From Plebeiibacterium marinum (lineage in GTDB: Bacteria; Bacteroidota; Bacteroidia; Bacteroidales; Marinilabiliaceae), in the NCBI RefSeq assembly GCF_026013615.1, contig NZ_JAPDPI010000030.1:1-64000 (forward strand): a stretch of 64,000 bases of DNA. The letters are read 5' to 3'. Position 1 is the first letter of the stretch; every line of letters begins with the position of its first letter. Shown here one piece after another: positions 24,460-34,105 of this stretch. Below the pieces are notes generated by a model that saw nothing but the letters and a program-made list of their open reading frames with translations, ran no database searches and was not told where the DNA came from. Both the position numbers and the translations under genes were made by a program.

Positions 24460-25458
24460 ATGAAAAAGAAACCATCATTAAAAGATATAGCTTCAAAAGT
24501 TGGCGTTTCAACTGCACTGGTATCTTATGTGCTTAATGGAAAGATGGAAGGGCGCATAAGCAAAGAGGTGGCAAGCCGTATTAAGGAAGTTGCCAAAGAA
24601 TTGAATTACCGACCTAACCAGATTGCTCGAAGTTTAAAAACAAACAAAACAAACTCAATAGGATTGCTTCTGGCAGATATCTCAAACCCGTTTTCATCGC
24701 AAATTGCCCGTATTATTGAAAATGAAGCAGATAGGATGGGATATGCAGTAATTATTGGTAGTTCGGATGAGGATATAGAAAAATCAGAAAAGATAATTGA
24801 TGTATTCTTAAATCGTCAGGTTGATGGTTTGATTTTATCATTACCTGATAATTCAGAACATATTGTGTCAAATTTGAAATCGAAGGACATTCCTTTTGTT
24901 TTGTTAGATAGATATTTTCCGGGCATTCCAACAAATACAGTAGCTGTTGATAATTATTCTGCCTCTGAAGATGTAGTGAAACACTTAATGGAAAAAAAAT
25001 ATAAGAATGTGGGCATTGTATCATATGACACTTCTTTAGTTCATTTAAATGAACGCTTACGTGGTGCTACAGAACAACTTAATGGTCATAGTAAGGTAGG
25101 TAAAGTCCGACTTGGGCACATTCAGGAAGATGTTGAGTCATCAATTGATTCTTTTCTGAAATCTGAACCATCTGTTGATGCTATCTTTTTTACATCTAAC
25201 CTTTTAACTATTTCAGGGTTAAAGTATTTAAATAGTAAGGAAGTTATTATACCTCGCGATTTAGGAGTAATTGCTTTTGATAAGACTGATGCTTTTGACC
25301 TGTTTTATACATCGATCACGTATGTTAATCAACCTCTTCCTCAATTGGGTAAAGAAGCTGTAAGACTGATTATTCAGGCCATATCTGATAATAAAAAGAA
25401 AGAACAGATATTCCTGTCAGCAGAACTCATCGTTCGGGATTCAACTTCCCGAAAATAA
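24460..25458 (+). CDS. LacI family transcriptional regulator
   Basis: The 332-residue protein has the LacI helix-turn-helix and hinge (SLKDIASKVGVSTALVSYVL, then NYRPNQIARSLKT) and a periplasmic-binding-protein-like sensor domain (SIGLLLADISNPFSS, FVLLDRYFP and GVIAFDKTDAFDLFYTSITY). The ligand is probably a sugar or sugar phosphate of the operon that follows. Copies of its presumed operator, GTTTAAACGWTTAARC, lie on its own promoter and twice upstream of the kinase gene at 25621. Confidence 0.92.
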   Translation: MKKKPSLKDIASKVGVSTALVSYVLNGKMEGRISKEVASRIKEVAKELNYRPNQIARSLKTNKTNSIGLLLADISNPFSSQIARIIENEADRMGYAVIIGSSDEDIEKSEKIIDVFLNRQVDGLILSLPDNSEHIVSNLKSKDIPFVLLDRYFPGIPTNTVAVDNYSASEDVVKHLMEKKYKNVGIVSYDTSLVHLNERLRGATEQLNGHSKVGKVRLGHIQEDVESSIDSFLKSEPSVDAIFFTSNLLTISGLKYLNSKEVIIPRDLGVIAFDKTDAFDLFYTSITYVNQPLPQLGKEAVRLIIQAISDNKKKEQIFLSAELIVRDSTSRK

Positions 25459-25473
25459 TTTTTTTGATTATAG

Positions 25474-25594
25474 GTTTAAACGATTAAGCAAGAAATAATC
25501 AAAAGTGAAAAACAGAAACTCCGGCCAATAGTGCGCGCTGTTCAGGACATCAGGTTCTGAAAATTTTTTACGAACGCTGTTTAAACGATTAAAC
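25474..25594 (+). promoter_or_regulatory. two LacI-type operators upstream of the ketose operon
   Basis: GTTTAAACGATTAAGC (25474-25489) and GTTTAAACGATTAAAC (25579-25594) match the operator at 24397-24412 at 14 and 15 of 16 positions. They are 105 bases apart centre to centre, close to ten helical turns, which would allow looping. The second lies 26 bases before the kinase start codon. Confidence 0.8.
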
Positions 25595-25620
25595 TATTTC
25601 AACAATAAAAATTTATCAAA

Positions 25621-26529
25621 ATGAATTCATCCAATTTTAGAAAAAACAAAGTAGTATGTTACGGGGAAGTACTATGGGATATATTCCCAAACCAGACAAA
25701 ACCTGGTGGGGCTCCAATGAATGTTGCTTACCACTTAAATAAGTTTGGTGTTGAAAGCAAAATGATCAGTAGGGTGGGAACCGACCAATTGGGAAAAGAC
25801 CTGTTGAATATTCTTAACGGATGGGGTGTTTCCATTAACAATTGCCAAATTGATGATGTTAATCAAACAGGTGTTGTTAACGCAATAGCCGGAGAGGATC
25901 ATGAAATGAGTTATGTTATAAAAGCTGATGCAGCCTGGGATCATATTGATTTTATGAATCATCATGTTGAAGAAGTTAAAAGTGCTGATGCATTTGTTTT
26001 TGGAACACTAAGTACCAGGAGCCAAAAATCAAGAGAAACCCTATATAAATTACTGGAACAAGCTTCATATAAAGTTTTTGATATAAATCTGCGACCACCC
26101 TTTTATTCTAAAGAAATTATTGAGCATCTGCTTAATGAGTGCAATCTTTTAAAATTAAATCAATCAGAACTTCAGTTACTTAATTCCTGGTTTTGCAAAG
26201 AAAAGCTGGATGAAAAAAGTAGTGTGCGTTTTCTTCAATCCCGGTATAATATTAATGAAGTTATTGTTACCAAAGGGAGTAGTGGTGCCACTTATTACGA
26301 TATGGAAACGGAGTGTTCATTCCCTGCAAACAAAGTAAAAGTCAAAGATACAGTCGGAAGTGGAGATTCTTTTCTTGCTGCTTTCCTAGCCAAAAAGATC
26401 CAGAATGAACCCGTTGAAACCGGAATGTACTACGCTACTGCTCTTGGTGCCTTTGTTACATCTCAGGAAGGTGCATGCCCTGATTACCAAATTGAATACT
26501 TGGATCAATTGGCTATTAGTGAAATGTAA
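25621..26529 (+). CDS. PfkB family carbohydrate kinase, fructokinase-like
   Basis: The 302-residue protein has the fructokinase-type N-terminal signature GEVLWDIFP followed by PGGAPMNVAYHL, and the PfkB C-terminal signature VKDTVGSGDSFLAAF with the catalytic aspartate in GSGDS. It should phosphorylate a ketohexose, most simply fructose to fructose 6-phosphate, using ATP in the cytoplasm. It is the first structural gene after two LacI-type operators, and is followed by a FucP-type transporter, a LamB-like porin and a ketose 3-epimerase, so it probably performs the last step that delivers the sugar to glycolysis. Confidence 0.88.
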   Translation: MNSSNFRKNKVVCYGEVLWDIFPNQTKPGGAPMNVAYHLNKFGVESKMISRVGTDQLGKDLLNILNGWGVSINNCQIDDVNQTGVVNAIAGEDHEMSYVIKADAAWDHIDFMNHHVEEVKSADAFVFGTLSTRSQKSRETLYKLLEQASYKVFDINLRPPFYSKEIIEHLLNECNLLKLNQSELQLLNSWFCKEKLDEKSSVRFLQSRYNINEVIVTKGSSGATYYDMETECSFPANKVKVKDTVGSGDSFLAAFLAKKIQNEPVETGMYYATALGAFVTSQEGACPDYQIEYLDQLAISEM

Positions 26530-26560
26530 AAAAAATCTTTTGAATTAATATTTGTCAGCT

Positions 26561-27934
26561 ATGAAAAATAATAACTACAACACAAAAAGTATTTCTAAAA
26601 AAAATCTTTTTCCTTTTATATTAGTGACCTTATTGTTCGGACTTTGGGGATTTGCAAATGCGGTTACAGATCCTATGGTTCAAGCCTTTAAAAAGGTATT
26701 GGAATTGTCAAACTCCCAGGCTGCATGGGTGCAAATGGCCTTTTATGGTGGGTATTTTTGTATGGCTCTACCGGCATCAATGTTTATGAAAAAATACTCT
26801 TATAAAGTTGGTATTTTAATTGGTTTGGGACTTTATGCAACAGGGGCATTGTTATTTTATCCTGCAGCCATAACTGAACAATTCTGGTTCTTTTGTTTGG
26901 GTTTATATGTTTTAACCTTTGGTCTGGCTTTTCTTGAAACAGCTGCCAATCCTTATGTTTTATCATTAGGGAGCAAAGAAACTGCAACAAGGCGTTTAAA
27001 TTTAGCTCAATCATTTAATCCAATTGGTTTGCTTGGAGGATTGTTAATTGCGCAACAATTTGTTCTAAAAAATTTAAAATCGGATGATATTCAAAACTTT
27101 TCCAGTTTAGACGAAGCTTCTAAAGTTTTAATAAAAACTACTGATTTAATGACTATTCGCGACCCTTATGTAATATTAGGTTTAGTTATTTTAGGCATCT
27201 TTGTTTTATTCCTGATCAACAAAATTCCAGAATCAAAGAACTCAGAGAAATCAAGCTCAGAAAATATAGGACAGGCGTTAAAGGCCTTAATAAAAAATAA
27301 AAAATACGTCTCCGGAGTCATGGCGCAAACCTTATACATTGGTGCCCAAATTATGTGCTGGACTTATATTTACCATTATGCCGAAGCGGGAAATATTGAT
27401 AATGTGACTGCTGGTTACTACCAATTTGCTGCATTTGTGTTGTTTACTGTTGGAAGAGGAGTTGGAACCTTTTTGCTAAAATACGTTAGTGAAGGAAAGT
27501 TGCTTTCGCTTTTCGGTATGGGCGCAGCTGCAAGTATGGTTGGAGCTATTCTTTTAAATAATGTGATAGGACTTAATTTTATTGTTCTGGCCTCATTCTT
27601 TATGTCGATAATGTATCCTACAATTTTTGGAACCGCTTTAAGTGGGTTAACAGAAGAGGAATCAAAAATTGGTTCGGCAGGATTGGTAATGGGGATCGTA
27701 GGCGGAGCATTAATGCCTAAGCTTCAAGGTTCTATTATTGATATATCCGGTAGTGGAGTAGCCGATATTCAAATAATGGGAGTCTCAGAAGTAAACTTCT
27801 CATTTCTGTTGCCTTTAATCTGCTTTGCTTATGTTTCATGGTATGGATTATCGGTTTCAAGGAAAAAGTACTCAATTCAGTCTTTCTTAAAACCCAAAGC
27901 ACAAGAGACCTTAAGTTATAATTGTGAAATCTAA
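26561..27934 (+). CDS. FucP-type sugar:H+ symporter (MFS)
   Basis: The ATG at 26561 gives 457 residues; a TTG three codons earlier is also open but less likely. The sequence shows twelve membrane helices and FucP/glucose-galactose transporter landmarks: LFGLWGFANAVTDPM in helix 1, GYFCMALPASMFMKKYSYK after helix 2, and the conserved ETAANPY motif with NLAQSFNPIG in helices 4-5. These are proton symporters in the inner membrane. Relatives are linked to fructokinase in Bacteroides fructan loci, which agrees with the kinase upstream. It lies in the LacI-controlled operon. Confidence 0.9.
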   Translation: MKNNNYNTKSISKKNLFPFILVTLLFGLWGFANAVTDPMVQAFKKVLELSNSQAAWVQMAFYGGYFCMALPASMFMKKYSYKVGILIGLGLYATGALLFYPAAITEQFWFFCLGLYVLTFGLAFLETAANPYVLSLGSKETATRRLNLAQSFNPIGLLGGLLIAQQFVLKNLKSDDIQNFSSLDEASKVLIKTTDLMTIRDPYVILGLVILGIFVLFLINKIPESKNSEKSSSENIGQALKALIKNKKYVSGVMAQTLYIGAQIMCWTYIYHYAEAGNIDNVTAGYYQFAAFVLFTVGRGVGTFLLKYVSEGKLLSLFGMGAAASMVGAILLNNVIGLNFIVLASFFMSIMYPTIFGTALSGLTEEESKIGSAGLVMGIVGGALMPKLQGSIIDISGSGVADIQIMGVSEVNFSFLLPLICFAYVSWYGLSVSRKKYSIQSFLKPKAQETLSYNCEI

Positions 27935-27948
27935 AAGCCTTTAAGAAA

Positions 27949-29340
27949 ATGAAATCTACAAGAAAATATATCAGTATAGTAGCTATTATTTTTATTAGCT
28001 CAATTATGACAGCTCAGGTTGTTATTACGAATACAAATTTTTCGATGGGAACCACCGGAAGGATCGGTATAGGGATGTCTCCTAATGGAGAAGGAATGCA
28101 ATGGAAACCTTTAAATCTTTCGGGGCAGGGATCGCTTGCCGGTAGGATGGAACAGTATGATTATATGGATTTATTACCTGCTATTCATTTTACTCCAAAA
28201 AGTGAGAACGATGATACTACCAATGTAACCATGCAGGTTCGTTTAGGTATGTACTCTCAAAACGGACAGTTTATGGGGAATGTGAGCTCTCGTTCTCCTC
28301 AGGGGTTAACATTTATTTTACCTGAAACCTATGTTGAAGCCAAAAATATTATGGGTAGTGATTGGTCGGCCTGGGCAGGTGTAAGGTTTAGACGATATGA
28401 TGATATCCATATTTGCGATTATTTTTATTTTGATGACCATTCTGCACAAGGGGCCGGGGTTAGCTACAAAGACACCGAATTTGCGATCTATATGCCGTCT
28501 TCATCTGATTCTTCAGGAGTTTACCCTTATAATTATCAGGTAACAGTTAAGGGGGCTACTAACCCGGCTATTCGTCAGAGAATGGTATTTGTAGGGGAGC
28601 ATACAATGAAGTTAAAAGGAGGAAACTCCCTTAAATTACTCGGCGAGTATCATTATGTGGCAGAAAACTCAAAAGATGTGGATTATTCGTATCCTTCAGA
28701 CTGGGGATGGGTATTGGGTGCCAAATTAAATTCTCCGCTAAAAACCAAGGTTGAAGGTTCTTTTAATCAGTTTTCAGTTCGATATGGAGCTGGCATTGCC
28801 AATGGCGGGGATAATGGAAATACCTGGACATGGGCAACCTATGGGGCTCCTGATCAAAATGGTAAATATACCAATGCGTATTCTGTAACAATGGTTGAGC
28901 ACTTCCTGTTAAATTTACACAAAAATTTTAGTCTGAATGGATATGGTATCTTTACCAATAGTAAAGGAGGTTCTTCAAGCAATAATAAAGCGCTGTTTTA
29001 TGATAAGAGTGAAATCTATAATAGAAAAACTGATTTTGTTGTGGGGGCGCGTTCGTTGTATTATGTCAAAAACTGGCTGCATTTAATTAATGAAGTTCAT
29101 TATGCAACACGTAAAGATGGTAATAATCCAACCGCTTCTATGTTGAAATTCTCTTTTGCACCAACTATTGTGCCTTTAGGAAAAAAGAATGCATGGTGCC
29201 GACCTCATATCCGTCTTGTTATGTCGGCTGCGAAATACAATGATTATGCAAAAGATAATCAGTATTCGCCTTATCTTCAGCTGAACAATAAAAGCTGGGG
29301 TACTTATATCGGTATTAAAACCGAAATGTGGTTATTCTAA
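27949..29340 (+). CDS. LamB-like carbohydrate porin
   Basis: The 463-residue protein has a signal peptide ending at MTAQ and a mature beta-barrel sequence. Several positions match maltoporin: WSAWAGVRFRRYDDIHICDY with YFYFDDHSAQGAG immediately after, a GLTFILPETYVEAKN strand pair, and a C-terminal barrel ending in KTEMWLF with aromatic terminal phenylalanine. It would let a sugar cross the outer membrane by facilitated diffusion. Bacteroidota normally use SusC/SusD pairs for this, and none is encoded here. It lies 14 bases after the transporter gene and is part of the same operon. The family call rests on motif similarity and barrel-like composition. Confidence 0.72.
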   Translation: MKSTRKYISIVAIIFISSIMTAQVVITNTNFSMGTTGRIGIGMSPNGEGMQWKPLNLSGQGSLAGRMEQYDYMDLLPAIHFTPKSENDDTTNVTMQVRLGMYSQNGQFMGNVSSRSPQGLTFILPETYVEAKNIMGSDWSAWAGVRFRRYDDIHICDYFYFDDHSAQGAGVSYKDTEFAIYMPSSSDSSGVYPYNYQVTVKGATNPAIRQRMVFVGEHTMKLKGGNSLKLLGEYHYVAENSKDVDYSYPSDWGWVLGAKLNSPLKTKVEGSFNQFSVRYGAGIANGGDNGNTWTWATYGAPDQNGKYTNAYSVTMVEHFLLNLHKNFSLNGYGIFTNSKGGSSSNNKALFYDKSEIYNRKTDFVVGARSLYYVKNWLHLINEVHYATRKDGNNPTASMLKFSFAPTIVPLGKKNAWCRPHIRLVMSAAKYNDYAKDNQYSPYLQLNNKSWGTYIGIKTEMWLF

Positions 29341-29365
29341 TTATTTACACTAAAATTGATTTATC

Positions 29366-30214
29366 ATGCCAACATTTGGAACTTCATACTTGTCATTTAT
29401 CCCTTACTGGACTCCAGAAGGAGGTGAATATTCCATAAGAAAAACTGCAGAATACGGGTTTGATATGCTTGAAATCAGTTTGCCATCAAACCTGGAGTTT
29501 AATGCAAAAAAAGTTAGAAAACAATTAAGTAACAACGGAATTGAAGCACGGTGCAGTCTGAACTTGCCTGCAGACAGCCATATGCCGCTTTATCCTGAAA
29601 AGGCCTTAGCGTTAATAAAATCAGCTATTGATATTGTATCTGAAATGGGAGGGGACTTTCTAGGTGGTGTATTGCACTCAGCCATTGGGAGTTTTACAGG
29701 TACCCCCTGTACAATAAATGAACGGGAAACAGTTAAACAAGTATTTACAGAATTGGCAAACTATGCAAAAGATCACCGCATTACAATAGCTCCTGAACCT
29801 ATCAATCGTTATGAGAGTTATGTATTTACAGCTGCCGACGAGGTGTTGGATATGATTGAGGAAATTGATTTGCCAAACATAGGACTACATATAGATACTT
29901 TCCATATGAACATTGAAGAAACAAACCTGTATGATCCAATCATCAGGGCAGGAGATAAATTAAAACATACCCACATTACAGAAAGTGACAGGGGCATGAC
30001 AGGAGAGGGAAACGTAAACTGGGATGATTTTTTTAAGGCATTATCTGAGATTAACTACCAAGGTCCACTGGTACTTGAAAATTTCTCATCCGAAATTAAA
30101 GAGCTTGTAGGACCAACCTCCTTATGGCGACCTTCAAAATACAACTCTGAAGATTTGGCAAAAGGAAGTTTGCAATTTATGAAGAATATGGTAAACAAAT
30201 GGTATAATACATAA
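29366..30214 (+). CDS. ketose 3-epimerase-like TIM-barrel protein
   Basis: The 282-residue protein belongs to the AP-endonuclease-2-like sugar isomerase/epimerase fold. The metal and substrate residues of D-tagatose/D-allulose 3-epimerases are in place: EPINRYE (first catalytic Glu), LHIDTFHMNIEE (Asp and His), HTHITESDRGMTGEGNVNW and the final LVLENF (second catalytic Glu). These Mn/Co enzymes invert C3 of ketohexoses. Together with a fructokinase and a transporter in one LacI-regulated operon, it suggests conversion of a rare ketose to fructose. Hydroxypyruvate isomerase is a less likely alternative. Confidence 0.82.
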   Translation: MPTFGTSYLSFIPYWTPEGGEYSIRKTAEYGFDMLEISLPSNLEFNAKKVRKQLSNNGIEARCSLNLPADSHMPLYPEKALALIKSAIDIVSEMGGDFLGGVLHSAIGSFTGTPCTINERETVKQVFTELANYAKDHRITIAPEPINRYESYVFTAADEVLDMIEEIDLPNIGLHIDTFHMNIEETNLYDPIIRAGDKLKHTHITESDRGMTGEGNVNWDDFFKALSEINYQGPLVLENFSSEIKELVGPTSLWRPSKYNSEDLAKGSLQFMKNMVNKWYNT

Positions 30215-30247: not shown

Positions 30248-30278
30248 AAACTCCCGGTTTTACATTAACCGGGAGTTT
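30248..30278. terminator. bidirectional terminator after the ketose operon
   Basis: Twelve-base perfect arms AAACTCCCGGTT (30248-30259) and AACCGGGAGTTT (30267-30278) enclose a seven-base loop, with TTAATTTTTTA a little downstream. It sits between the epimerase stop and the convergent stop of the ATP-grasp gene and can serve both strands. Confidence 0.85.
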
Positions 30279-30284
30279 GTTGTA

Positions 30285-32429
30285 TTAATTTTTTAGTAGT
30301 AAAGCTAAAAGTAATGCTCGCTCTGTTATACTATGGCGGATAATCCTTTCATTATCTGAGGGAAGGTATTCTCCAACTGGTCCAAGTCCATCAATTATAG
30401 GTAAATCCTTTTTTATGTGACAGATGTCTGCAGAACTCCATCTGTGTTCTTCAGTGATTCGGACATCAATCTTCTTAGCCAATTCGCAGATTTGATTAAA
30501 TAATTGGGTAGATTTTTCAGAGGCAGAAAGTGCGGGTCTCTTCAAACCACCTTCTATCTTCATCTGATAAATTTTACTTCTTTTTTGCGTAGACAGAATC
30601 TTCTTTATTTTCATCTCTATCTCGTCAAGTACTTCTGGTGAATTGTAGCGTACGCTAATACCGGCGGTACCATATGCATATCGTTTAAAAATATTACTCT
30701 TAAATTCTATGTCAAAAGGAGCTATAATATTGTTGCTGTCGTTGTAAGAAATATCGGTAATAGCAGCAAGTGTTTTATTAAAATTCATAGCTGTATTTGA
30801 AACATGTTCAGGATTGTCCTTTTTTAACATCTTTGTATCAAGGCGATAAAGTGCAGATCCGGAGCGGGATAAGATAAGTCCTCCGCTTTTTGATGAGCCG
30901 CTTAATGAAATCACAGATTGGGCAATTTCCGCTTTTTGCTGGATAATAGATTTGGAATACCTACCATCAATAGAAGAGTCTGTTACTAATAAAATCCCTA
31001 TTTTTAATTTTTTCAAACTCCTTGAAAACTTTAGTGCCTGAAGAGCTGAGATTAAAATAGCAATACCACCTTTATTTTCCCAGATACCTGTTCCTTCCAA
31101 ATATTGTTCATGTTCCTGGAAGTTTTCGTGTTTAGCTAATTTTATTCTGGTATCTATGGGTTGTACAATTAAATAATCCACCTCCTGATTAAATGAATTG
31201 GAAAAATATAATATGTTTCCAACTTCAAGTTGAGGGTATATTTCCTGCGTAAAACCCATTTGGCTTAATTCAGAACTAATTAATCCGGAACAATAATTTA
31301 CTCCTTCAACATTCCTTACGTATGTATCGGTATCAACCATCTGTTTTAGAAGTTTTTCCGTTCGTTGCTGCCTGGTTTTTATAAAAGTCCGCATTCGCGA
31401 TGTTTGACTTGTCTTTGATTTTGACTTGTTATTGTCTCCCTGTGGCAGGGCATTGGTAAAATAGCGAACAGATGCCACATCAAGCATCTTGTTTACAAGT
31501 CCCTCAAAGTTATATCCGGCAACCTTTGCTGCAGTGGGATAGGAGCCTGATTCTCCAAGGCTGGCCATGGAGTTTATTTCTAACAGGTAAATGTTCTCGT
31601 CTTCATCCAACCGGATATCAACACGGGCAAAATCCCTTAGGTTTAATGCATTAAAGGCATCTATACTGATTTGCTGCATTTTTTCTGCTAATTCGGGGCT
31701 GATATGTGCAGGACAAACTTTCTTTTTGGGTTTATGCTTTTTATCATCAACAGTTTGTATGGCATCCGGATCTCCCTCCAAGTCAATTTCCAGTACGGGG
31801 AAAGATTCAACCGGGGAATTCCCAATGAGCCCCACACAAAATTCACGTCCCCTTATAAATTGCTCAACCAGAGCTTGTTGGTCAAATTCTGTAACAATAT
31901 AATGTACGGCCTCTCTTAAATCTTCCTGATTGTATACTACCTTTAAGCCAAATGAAACACTTTCCATTTTTGGTTTTACAATTACCGGAAATTTTACAGT
32001 CGACATGTCCTCTTCATGATTGTTGAATACCCAAAAATCCGGTGTGGGAAGGTTGTTGTTTTTCCAGATAATCTTAGTCAATACTTTGTCTAACGCCAGC
32101 GCATGACCAGATGGTGAAGAGCCGACATAAGGTAGTCCTAGCATTTCTAACATACTAGGAATGTGTGTATAACGGGATTCGCCCTGGATTCCATAAGCCA
32201 TATTGAATATCATGCCCATTTGTTCGCCTTCATTTACCCTGGGCATAAAATTTTCAAGTCTTTCTATAATCTGTTTGTTTCCATCTAAAATGGCCACATT
32301 GTGTCCTGCTTTTTCCAGACTTTCAGCCACTCTTTTTACGGTTTTTTCGTTATAGAACTCTTTGTTCTGCATTCCAAAGGTGTTGATCACACCACTTATG
32401 TCTTTATTATATATTAATGCAACTTTCAT
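30285..32429 (-). CDS. ATP-grasp ligase fused to a degenerate M20-like domain
   Basis: The 714-residue protein has two parts. Residues about 1-320 are a D-Ala-D-Ala-ligase-like ATP-grasp enzyme: AYGIQGESRYTHIPSMLEML, VGSSPSGHALALDKVLTK, PVIVKPKMESVSFG, and the metal-binding YLLEINSMASLGESGSYP. Such enzymes join a carboxylate to an amine through an acyl phosphate. Residues about 350-714 align with carboxypeptidase-G2-type M20 peptidases, but the metal ligands are replaced: HxD reads PID (424-426), ADMKGG reads WENKGG (450-455), the EE pair is SS (485-486), and the final HS is PS (690-691). The domain is probably a binding module rather than a peptidase. It overlaps the MscS gene by four bases and is in one operon with a glutamine amidotransferase gene. 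Confidence 0.85.
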   Translation of the reverse strand: MKVALIYNKDISGVINTFGMQNKEFYNEKTVKRVAESLEKAGHNVAILDGNKQIIERLENFMPRVNEGEQMGMIFNMAYGIQGESRYTHIPSMLEMLGLPYVGSSPSGHALALDKVLTKIIWKNNNLPTPDFWVFNNHEEDMSTVKFPVIVKPKMESVSFGLKVVYNQEDLREAVHYIVTEFDQQALVEQFIRGREFCVGLIGNSPVESFPVLEIDLEGDPDAIQTVDDKKHKPKKKVCPAHISPELAEKMQQISIDAFNALNLRDFARVDIRLDEDENIYLLEINSMASLGESGSYPTAAKVAGYNFEGLVNKMLDVASVRYFTNALPQGDNNKSKSKTSQTSRMRTFIKTRQQRTEKLLKQMVDTDTYVRNVEGVNYCSGLISSELSQMGFTQEIYPQLEVGNILYFSNSFNQEVDYLIVQPIDTRIKLAKHENFQEHEQYLEGTGIWENKGGIAILISALQALKFSRSLKKLKIGILLVTDSSIDGRYSKSIIQQKAEIAQSVISLSGSSKSGGLILSRSGSALYRLDTKMLKKDNPEHVSNTAMNFNKTLAAITDISYNDSNNIIAPFDIEFKSNIFKRYAYGTAGISVRYNSPEVLDEIEMKIKKILSTQKRSKIYQMKIEGGLKRPALSASEKSTQLFNQICELAKKIDVRITEEHRWSSADICHIKKDLPIIDGLGPVGEYLPSDNERIIRHSITERALLLALLLKN

Positions 32430-33268
32430 TGTGTAATTTGTTTTGAATGTTTATTAACTATGGTTCTGTGTGGGTAAGGTATTTCAATGCCTACCTGATC
32501 GAATCGTTTTTTTACGGATTCATTCATGTCACAGTTTAGTACAAAAGCATCATCATTGTTTTTTGCCCATATATATGCCCGTATGGTTACAGAGTATTCT
32601 CCCAGGCGGATAACTCGTGTAAGTGCCATCGGTTTATTTACCTTCTTATCTTCTTCAGAGCGATTATCATATATTAAAGGGTGGTTAACAGCCTCTTCGT
32701 ATATGATTTTTTTTGCAAGTTCAATATCTGATTCATAGCTTATGTCAAATTCTACAAATTTTTTAATTTTCTCCTCTATTATATTGCTGTTTATAATTGT
32801 GGCTTCACTTATTATTGAATTAGGAATAATTATACGGCGGTTTTCATAGTTCCTTATGATGGTGTGACGTAAGGTTATTTCTTCGACAATACCTTTGTCA
32901 ATACCATTAATCTCAATCACATCGTTCACCCTAAAAGGGCGAAATATCAGAATAAAAATACCGCTTATAATATTGCTAAACGCTTTTTGCGAAGCAAAAC
33001 CTATAATTGCCGCCAAAACCCCGGCTCCTGCAAATAATGCTTTGCTTACAGTTTTTAGTGATGGGGTTATGTAAAAAATCGCTATAAGTCCTGCTGTATA
33101 TATTAAAAAGCTAATTGAGTTTTTTAGAAATGAAAAGTTGGTGGGATCAACATTAACTTTTAATGATTTCCGTTTGATAAACAAACCCAAAAACTTCCGG
33201 ATGATAAATGATGATAAATAAACCGCAACAATAATAATTGCCACTTGAAGCCAATACTGCCAATCCAT
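32426..33268 (-). CDS. MscS family mechanosensitive ion channel
   Basis: The 280-residue protein has three N-terminal membrane helices; the third is the glycine/alanine-rich pore helix GAGVLAAIIGFASQKAFSNIISG, followed by the beta domain FRPFRVNDVIEINGIDKGIVEEI and the IIIPNSIISEATIIN segment typical of MscS. It opens under membrane tension and releases solutes during osmotic downshift. Its gene is tightly packed between a glutamine amidotransferase gene (one base apart) and the ATP-grasp fusion (four-base overlap), which is an unusual setting; the channel may pass or sense the product of these enzymes. Confidence 0.9.
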   Translation of the reverse strand: MDWQYWLQVAIIIVAVYLSSFIIRKFLGLFIKRKSLKVNVDPTNFSFLKNSISFLIYTAGLIAIFYITPSLKTVSKALFAGAGVLAAIIGFASQKAFSNIISGIFILIFRPFRVNDVIEINGIDKGIVEEITLRHTIIRNYENRRIIIPNSIISEATIINSNIIEEKIKKFVEFDISYESDIELAKKIIYEEAVNHPLIYDNRSEEDKKVNKPMALTRVIRLGEYSVTIRAYIWAKNNDDAFVLNCDMNESVKKRFDQVGIEIPYPHRTIVNKHSKQITQ

Positions 33269-33269
33269 A

Positions 33270-33845
33270 TTATAAAATATTACAAATCTTTAAAAAGTTT
33301 TTAACCATAACCATACCATCTTCTCCCGATACTTCCGGATGTGATTGGAATCCATAAATGGGCTTTGATTTATGGCGGATAATCTCATTTGAGCAGGTGT
33401 CGGAAATGGCCAGACTATCAAAGGAAGAAGGGAGTTCTGAAACATGAAAAGAATGCCTTTTTACTAAAGATACTTCAGATTTCTTTAATCCTTCAAAAAT
33501 AGGGTCTTCCTGGTTTGTTATGGTAATGATTTCTTTTTTACTGTGATACTCAGGAAGCTTTTTAATTCTGCCCCTGTAACTTACCGCAATGATTTCGTGT
33601 CCGAGACAGAAACCTAGAACCGGTACGTCAAAATTCATCAGCGCGACAAAATTTGAGGTTAAATTTAATGGCTCATATGGATTGCCTTTCCCTCCGGATA
33701 AAATGATTCCTTTAATCTGTGTTTTTGCAGATAAAGTAATTGGTTGGTTGTGATCAAAAAATACATAATCAAAATCTTGCTCTGAAAGAAACTGACGTTT
33801 GAATTTCTTTATGAAAGCACTTTGGTTGTCAATGATTAATAGCAT
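33270..33845 (-). CDS. class I glutamine amidotransferase (GATase1) protein
   Basis: The 191-residue stand-alone protein has the full class I triad: nucleophile C80 in LGFCLGHE, and H169 and E171 in GFQSHPEVS. The oxyanion segment SGGKG is at residues 50-54. It resembles the GATase half of GMP synthase and anthranilate synthase component II but has no partner domain. It should hydrolyse glutamine and hand ammonia to an acceptor enzyme. The ATP-grasp ligase in the same operon is the obvious acceptor, giving a possible amidation reaction. It is the first gene of a three-gene minus-strand operon. Confidence 0.85.
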   Translation of the reverse strand: MLLIIDNQSAFIKKFKRQFLSEQDFDYVFFDHNQPITLSAKTQIKGIILSGGKGNPYEPLNLTSNFVALMNFDVPVLGFCLGHEIIAVSYRGRIKKLPEYHSKKEIITITNQEDPIFEGLKKSEVSLVKRHSFHVSELPSSFDSLAISDTCSNEIIRHKSKPIYGFQSHPEVSGEDGMVMVKNFLKICNIL

Positions 33846-34105
33846 CTTATAGAATTATGATAAAAACTTGTTGAATCAAAATGTAATTGAATAATGTTAA
33901 ACTATTCTTAAATCAAAAATAAAGTAAAAAAACATACCAATTGGAGAAATTATAGGTAAAAACACGAATAATTATGTTTTTTTATTGTGTTTAAAAATTG
34001 ATGGGATACAACTATTGTATACAGCCTATATATTACTTTTATATGACGTAATAATGCCTTTATAAAAGAAAACCTTAGCTTTGTCAGCCTAAAAAATTAA
34101 TTGCC
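33846..34105. promoter_or_regulatory. divergent promoter region, with -7 box for the Cys-rich gene
   Basis: This AT-rich gap separates the minus-strand GATase operon from the plus-strand redox pair. A -7 box TAGCTTTG is at 34076-34083, 22 bases before the start at 34106. No clear -33 box or palindrome was found. Confidence 0.4.

Follow-up and report, generated by a model that had tools for sequence, protein, structure and literature searches.

What do three tightly packed minus-strand genes on a contig of Plebeiibacterium marinum (NZ_JAPDPI010000030.1; Bacteroidota, Marinilabiliaceae) make together? They lie in the stretch of 64,000 nucleotides analysed here (the window) and encode a class I glutamine amidotransferase-family enzyme, a mechanosensitive channel of the MscS family and a protein (the fusion) that joins a D-Ala-D-Ala-ligase-like ATP-grasp half to a half resembling M20 peptidases. 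The original prediction made from this DNA saw one three-gene system in which glutamine ammonia may be fed to the ligase; its gene positions, with a one-base gap between the amidotransferase and MscS genes (base 33269) and a four-base overlap between the MscS and fusion genes (32426-32429), are exact to the base for the three open reading frames (ORFs; Table 1). What is conserved is the pair of class I amidotransferase and 714-residue fusion (the unit). Family relationships lead us to propose that it is a ligase system, hitherto undescribed, whose product is an amide or peptide of a glutamate-like kind and may be a compatible solute. No description of the amidotransferase/fusion combination was found in the open-access literature; the subscription literature lay mostly outside that coverage, and the 2009 amidoligase survey by Iyer and colleagues might mention it.

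The amidotransferase and the fusion keep company across genomes. Within the order, the fusion was found in five of 247 genomes at E <=1e-40, the window's genome included (one of the five, G017, holds only the C-terminal half, at a contig end), and the amidotransferase in four, all of them among those five (Fisher test 3e-8, kinship ignored). The only other member of the genus among these 247 and the two remaining members of the family fell short of the fusion threshold of E 1e-40. Across the phylum, two of 395 genomes carry the fusion at E 1e-60, again counting the window's genome. A contig scan with a five-row alignment and two short peptide patterns, which gives a lower bound biased to members keeping the patterns, yielded 73 loci with the fusion, fusion pieces or, in a few cases, freestanding ATP-grasp relatives (L074 and L077-L079 hold such relatives only, and some other loci cut or broken fusions). 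Linkage was counted in 48 loci with a fusion ORF of at least 560 residues and at least 1.6 kb of flank on each side, three duplicates and shorter ones being dropped. In 24 of these, no more than 1.6 kb separates the amidotransferase gene from the fusion; it stands upstream on the same strand in 22 and downstream on the opposite strand in two, and in L026 it is a short piece only. The orthologue set is sharply bounded, its members scoring at least 315 bits and the next family at most 85 bits. The pairing is not a matter of chance, because it is kept in many genomes: the predicted functional tie is supported for these two genes, which are linked in relatives. In the genome of L072, an amidotransferase gene adjoins an MscS gene outside the 18-kb locus holding the fusion (G678:C254:3793-4856).

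By record labels, bacterial carriers of the fusion include Marinilabiliaceae, Marinifilaceae, other Bacteroidota, Melioribacteraceae, Desulfobulbaceae/Desulfocapsaceae, Syntrophomonadaceae, other Bacillota, Phycisphaerales and Acidobacteria, archaeal carriers include anaerobic methanotrophic archaea (ANME) and other Methanosarcinales, Methanophagales, Methanomicrobiaceae, Thermoplasmata and Nitrosopumilus, and several candidate phyla are represented too. Many carriers are metagenome bins, in which misbinning is possible; chromosome-level records with the fusion comprise NZ_CP050700 and NZ_CP115913, which are not marked as bins, and the bins CP070751, CP070782 and CP070633. In a tree of 63 fusions (the 66 of at least 600 residues minus the duplicates L004, L006 and L008), built by a quick method and with some long branches, the Desulfobulbaceae fusions nest within the amidotransferase-bearing Bacteroidota branch, suggesting that the pair has moved from one phylum to another. 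Among viral contigs, two stretches fit a pattern and neither encoded a relative.

The ATP-grasp half (Pfam Dala_Dala_lig_C, 1.3e-37 over residues 121-316) stands up to alignment as predicted: K115, E189, D271 and N286 are kept in 66 of 66 fusions and K152 and E284 in 65, the degenerate letters at these positions coming from a paralogue in L043. With D-alanine ligases (Ddl) it thus shares the ATP-grasp fold and the ATP- and Mg-binding Lys, Glu, Asp, Glu and Asn; it differs from them in its additional M20 half, in its scores and in its substrate residues. Among the best 25 of 68 families, the highest D-alanine ligase score is 179 bits (PRK01372, cut-off 243), and TIGR01205 gives 167.5 bits (cut-off 245.65). 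In an alignment to 1iov, V158, G295 and S296 replace DdlB S150, S281 and L282, which we take to be the positions holding the D-Ala substrates. An ordinary D-Ala-D-Ala ligase is therefore rejected. A second, D-Ala-D-Ala-like ligase for cell-wall modification is a very improbable role as well: D-alanine ligases are the best family matches, but the sub-threshold scores and changed residues argue against it, as do a separate ordinary Ddl encoded elsewhere in the window's genome and the presence of the fusion in archaea, which have no cell wall of the D-Ala-D-Ala type.

The other half of the fusion matches Pfam Peptidase_M20 marginally (2.7e-4; 21.3 bits against a cut-off of 24.6), with E <=0.001 in 46 of 59 fusion members; by E-value it more clearly matches NCBIfam PRK07338 at 3.2e-26 (91.8 bits, under the model cut-off of 357) and the solved carboxypeptidase G2 1cg2 at 3.4e-10 over residues 354-710. 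It is thus related by sequence to carboxypeptidase G2 and the M20 glutamate carboxypeptidases, but their catalytic residues are gone. With the intact M20 protein of L043 as reference, none of 66 fusions has the catalytic Glu-Glu pair or the next Glu ligand, four of 61 labelled rows retaining Glu at the first position of the pair alone. Among fusions labelled with the amidotransferase, the first His is missing from 33 of 33 as well, and the last His from 31 of 33; of those labelled with the alternative partner described below, a gamma-glutamyltransferase, 15 of 19 still have the first His and 8 of 19 the last. An active M20 peptidase is therefore rejected, and this half is a pseudopeptidase, as had been proposed. 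It has conserved motifs of its own (GTGIWENKGG, SRSG and EHRWSSxDI), the first and third strongly conserved outside Nitrosopumilus; such conservation suggests that the domain is under selection for something besides hydrolysis. In L043 (1358-10181), a gamma-glutamyltransferase, a KamA-family aminomutase closest to glutamate 2,3-aminomutase, the intact M20 gene, a paralogue of the fusion whose ATP-grasp residues are degenerate, and an ordinary fusion stand in a row, possibly the ancestral separate-peptidase state next to the fused state.

The amidotransferase (Pfam GATase, 4.3e-28) carries the triad first assigned to it, C80, H169 and E171, in all 27 aligned orthologues (32 are linked; the other five are near copies, duplicates or pieces). 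All 27 also have E84, a Glu in place of the usual Gln after the CxGH motif; the solved GMP-synthase subunit with which the enzyme was aligned has Gln there. The closest families are GMP-synthase and anthranilate-synthase subunits at 113 bits, short of the cut-off of 198 for the GMP synthase subunit A model, whereas gamma-glutamyl hydrolases reach only 35 bits. Because these nearest relatives are synthase-bound subunits, transfer of ammonia to the ligase is the strongest rival to our reading, albeit a rather unlikely one. The amidotransferase would then dock on the fusion, perhaps on its dead M20 half, and ammonia would attack the acyl phosphate to give an amidated acid. The intact triad and the strict co-occurrence with the fusion in the order agree with such glutamine-dependent amidation, but the Glu at position 84 does not.

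Other genomes have another partner. Outside the Bacteroidota/Desulfobulbaceae branch, it is common for a fusion to lack the amidotransferase. A gene of the gamma-glutamyltransferase family stands downstream of the fusion in archaea and several bacteria, often across a gap of 2-9 bases or with a short overlap, and is itself often followed by an N-formylglutamate amidohydrolase-family gene (both families were named for example genes and otherwise assigned by clustering). By eye, no signal peptide was seen in members complete at the gamma-glutamyltransferase N terminus. Of 48 genomes searched, 46 hold at least part of the fusion, those of L074 and L077 having freestanding ligase relatives only. 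Among the 46, 15 encode the amidotransferase, 21 the gamma-glutamyltransferase (at least 592 bits), one both and 11 neither, so the two partners largely avoid each other (Fisher 0.0003, kinship ignored). The partner labels, some from linkage and some from whole-genome search, need only two changes on the fusion tree, which suggests clade-level replacement and not many independent swaps.

The fusion itself hardly changes with its partner. Only five near-fixed differences (90% in the 33 amidotransferase-labelled fusions, 75% in the 19 gamma-glutamyltransferase-labelled ones) separate the groups, none of them catalytic: L127I, N136S and M315I in the ATP-grasp half and E396Q and I672V in the M20 half. 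The ligase half being nearly identical, it probably catalyses one and the same reaction whichever partner is present. From this comes our main argument, that the partner's task must be feasible for both families; the partner enzyme thus probably cuts a gamma-glutamyl amide bond. The claim that glutamine ammonia is fed to the ligase is weakened because the ligase is almost unchanged where a gamma-glutamyltransferase apparently replaces the amidotransferase. The swap is compatible with amidation, since a gamma-glutamyltransferase, too, can set ammonia free from glutamine, but this enzyme is not known to channel ammonia, and the 11 genomes with neither partner fit amidation poorly.

The genome with both partners, the bin Ww573, has one fusion as far as seen, split over two contig ends, with residues 1-63 in L081 and 64-704 in L058. 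Since these pieces are complementary, two fusion copies are rejected, and Ww573 is a real exception to partner exclusion unless the bin is mixed. In L081 (5938-8191), CorA and MscS genes stand just before the N-terminal fusion piece; in L058, the remainder is followed by the gamma-glutamyltransferase gene and an N-formylglutamate amidohydrolase-like gene. In L073 (109-1088), the fusion ends after about 107 residues and directly joins an N-formylglutamate amidohydrolase-like gene, either through a deletion or through an assembly fault.

The MscS gene (MS_channel_2nd, PF00924, 1.6e-18; MS_channel_3rd, PF21082, 1.1e-7) is a recurrent but optional companion. Of the 48 loci, 10 have an MscS-family gene no more than 1.6 kb from the fusion, whereas 0.28 would be expected given that 33 genomes, about 145 Mb in all, contain 172 MscS genes (binomial 2e-13, kinship ignored). 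The window's order of amidotransferase, MscS and fusion genes recurs in L011, L015, L017 and L022, and other MscS-fusion arrangements occur in L025, L026, L028, L032, L033 and L035. The channel's inclusion in the original prediction thus stands as a non-random link; a fixed three-gene system is rejected, the MscS gene being missing beside the pair in most relatives. The linkage is best explained by a shared osmotic context. Nitrogen or peptide salvage, in which gamma-glutamyl or N-acyl-glutamate compounds would be broken down or rebuilt for growth with no osmotic role, is distinctly unlikely: the M20 ancestry of the fusion half and the amidohydrolase-type archaeal companions (gamma-glutamyltransferase and N-formylglutamate amidohydrolase-like) favour it, but the MscS enrichment and the death of the M20 half do not, nor does the ligase as the conserved core around which hydrolases vary.

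Genes for two known osmolytes are scarce in genomes with the fusion. Strong ectoine synthases occur in two of 33 (three more are marginally over the cut-off), and TIGR03103, the ligase of the N-acetylglutaminylglutamine amide (NAGGN) pathway, exceeds its cut-off in two of 33 (three more are partial and under it). The window's genome has no ectoine synthase at the threshold used and no TIGR03103 match at E 1e-30.

Several further arrangements involve MscS genes. Within a few kb after the fusion, L046 and L055 (both from ANME) as well as L073 have a DUF432-type gene and an MscS gene; the DUF432 gene overlaps the MscS gene by a few bases in archaea (L046:13302-14860, L055:13303-14852, L073:1092-2659 and L048:2990-4539; assigned by Pfam for L046 and by clustering for the others), and its product may work with the channel. 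L025 and L028, from two Marinilabiliaceae, each have four MscS-family genes (by clustering) around the fusion. A gene joining GNAT and carbon-nitrogen hydrolase domains (L028:15369-16943, by Pfam in L028 only; cluster mates in L017, L025, L032 and L070) recurs in loci holding both MscS and the ATP-grasp/M20 fusion.

Among known systems, the NAGGN operon is the nearest analogue. We take its Ngg to carry an ATP-grasp domain and its peptidase to be of family M42, which shares a clan with M20. In the operon as described in PMC8070244 (asnO, ngg and the peptidase gene), a glutamine-dependent amidotransferase, a dipeptide ligase and a protein of peptidase type are likewise encoded next to one another, and non-ribosomal glutamyl dipeptide chemistry makes an osmoprotectant dipeptide amide. 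The NAGGN operon has an asparagine-synthetase-like amidotransferase, a GNAT-fused ligase and a separate peptidase, whereas the present unit has a class I amidotransferase, a ligase fused to a dead M20 domain and no acetyltransferase in the operon. Membership of the NAGGN system is rejected on the TIGR03103 results above. Other pairs of a ligase with a class I amidotransferase-family hydrolase are, presumably, PuuA/PuuD and that of gamma-glutamyl-CDP-amidate hydrolase. The ligases of such gamma-glutamyl protect-and-release pairs are, we assume, glutamine-synthetase-like, unlike the ATP-grasp fusion, and the amidotransferase scores 35.1 bits with the gamma-glutamyl-CDP-amidate hydrolase model, far from its cut-off of 250.

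A link to beta-amino acids is seen in a few loci. KamA-family aminomutases lie near the fusion in L057, L062 and L043, but they lack the Asp that contacts the side chain of lysine. KamA-family genes are common anyway (43 of 48 genomes), and none was seen linked to the window's operon. No acetyltransferase was recognised beside these three aminomutases, where unclustered neighbours were only partly scanned. The comparison is with AblA/AblB, an osmolyte pathway for N-epsilon-acetyl-beta-lysine according to PMC1224877. Given the few linked loci and the missing Asp, a beta-lysine osmolyte as the general product is unsupported. Beta-glutamate made by a glutamate aminomutase is a lead only, and PMC1224877 reports early nuclear magnetic resonance evidence against that route in methanogens. 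In Chloroflexi, L077 (6623-10394) and similarly L078 and L079 hold a lysine 2,3-aminomutase-like KamA gene and two freestanding Ddl-like ATP-grasp genes with no M20 fusion (GNAT is also present in L077 and L078), perhaps another beta-amino-acid ligase system.

We take all the linked families to handle glutamyl compounds, namely the amidotransferase, the gamma-glutamyltransferase, the N-formylglutamate amidohydrolase family and the M20 glutamate-carboxypeptidase fold. This, together with the few ectoine and NAGGN genomes and the NAGGN analogue, favours as product an amide or peptide of a glutamate-like kind that would probably act as a compatible solute. Our model, which we hold to be possible though not probable as a whole, is that the unit is an ATP-dependent amide or peptide ligase module for a glutamate-like small molecule. 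Gene linkage and co-occurrence, the kept ligase residues, the dead M20 site, the alternative partner and the MscS enrichment are observations; every chemical step, the choice of glutamate as substrate and an osmotic role are inferred. The ATP-grasp half would use ATP to activate a carboxylate and then join it to an amine, and the M20 half, no longer hydrolytic, would bind the glutamyl substrate or product or offer it a docking site. The partner (the class I amidotransferase in the window, the gamma-glutamyltransferase in the archaeal branch) would cut a gamma-glutamyl amide bond via a gamma-glutamyl-enzyme intermediate, and might thereby release the product from a gamma-glutamyl intermediate, recycle the product or take nitrogen from glutamine. 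The product would probably be a compatible solute, vented by the adjoining MscS channel on hypo-osmotic shock; that the channel releases or senses the product, as first suggested, is a guess.

Several points weigh against this model. The amidotransferase's nearest relatives appear to be ammonia-supplying synthase subunits, not gamma-glutamyl hydrolases. Partner exclusion tracks clades and may reflect one or two historical events; 11 of the 46 fusion genomes have neither partner, and Ww573 has both. MscS is absent within 1.6 kb of the fusion in 38 of the 48 loci, and its label changes nine times on the tree (56 rows, seven short-flank rows being omitted). The link to saline habitats comes from record titles and general knowledge of habitats, and some titles suggest caves or springs.

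A more specific reading, in which we place still less confidence, is that of an undescribed compatible-solute pathway spread by gene transfer among marine anaerobic bacteria and methane-oxidising and ammonia-oxidising archaea. The dead-carboxypeptidase fusion would build a glutamate-like amide, two unrelated gamma-glutamyl cutters would be exchangeable, and the product would contain a beta-amino acid in lineages with a linked aminomutase; we consider this combination doubtful.

In the window, the terminator-like hairpin beyond the fusion probably marks the operon end; it is well placed, yet weak by number, two such sites being found against 2.7 expected from shuffles. The possible -7 box TATTTTTG, judged by the Bacteroidota promoter consensus, is one of 96 matches in the window; chance would give 99, so there is no excess over shuffles. 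On the plus strand, positions 24460-30214 hold a LacI-type regulator, a PfkB-type kinase, an MFS transporter and outer-membrane porin-like and TIM-barrel-like genes in a row, by eye a sugar-use cluster unrelated to the ligase unit.

Table 1. Features of the amidotransferase/fusion locus in the window.
Feature	Coordinates	Strand	Basis
Class I glutamine amidotransferase-family enzyme, 191 aa	33270..33845	-	ORF + Pfam/NCBIfam
MscS-family channel, 280 aa, optional member	32426..33268	-	ORF + Pfam
Fusion, 714 aa, whole ORF	30285..32429	-	ORF + Pfam/NCBIfam
Fusion N-terminal half, D-Ala-D-Ala-ligase-like ATP-grasp, about residues 1-325	31455..32429	-	family matches
Fusion C-terminal half, M20-like, about residues 345-714	30285..31397	-	family matches
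Terminator-like hairpin of 12 pairs, separating the fusion from a convergent gene whose end is at 30214	30248..30278	unassigned	
Possible -7 box TATTTTTG, about 70 bases upstream of the amidotransferase start	33914..33921	-	placement only

The unit may bear on the solutes with which many marine anaerobes and ANME archaea protect themselves against salt: 29 of the 33 genomes lack a strong ectoine synthase as well as the NAGGN ligase. It offers a defined two-gene target that is testable in cultured Marinilabiliaceae. If the model is true, the fusion would show clearly how a peptidase fold can be retained for a different purpose in two domains of life, and one reaction step would have passed from an amidotransferase to a gamma-glutamyltransferase.

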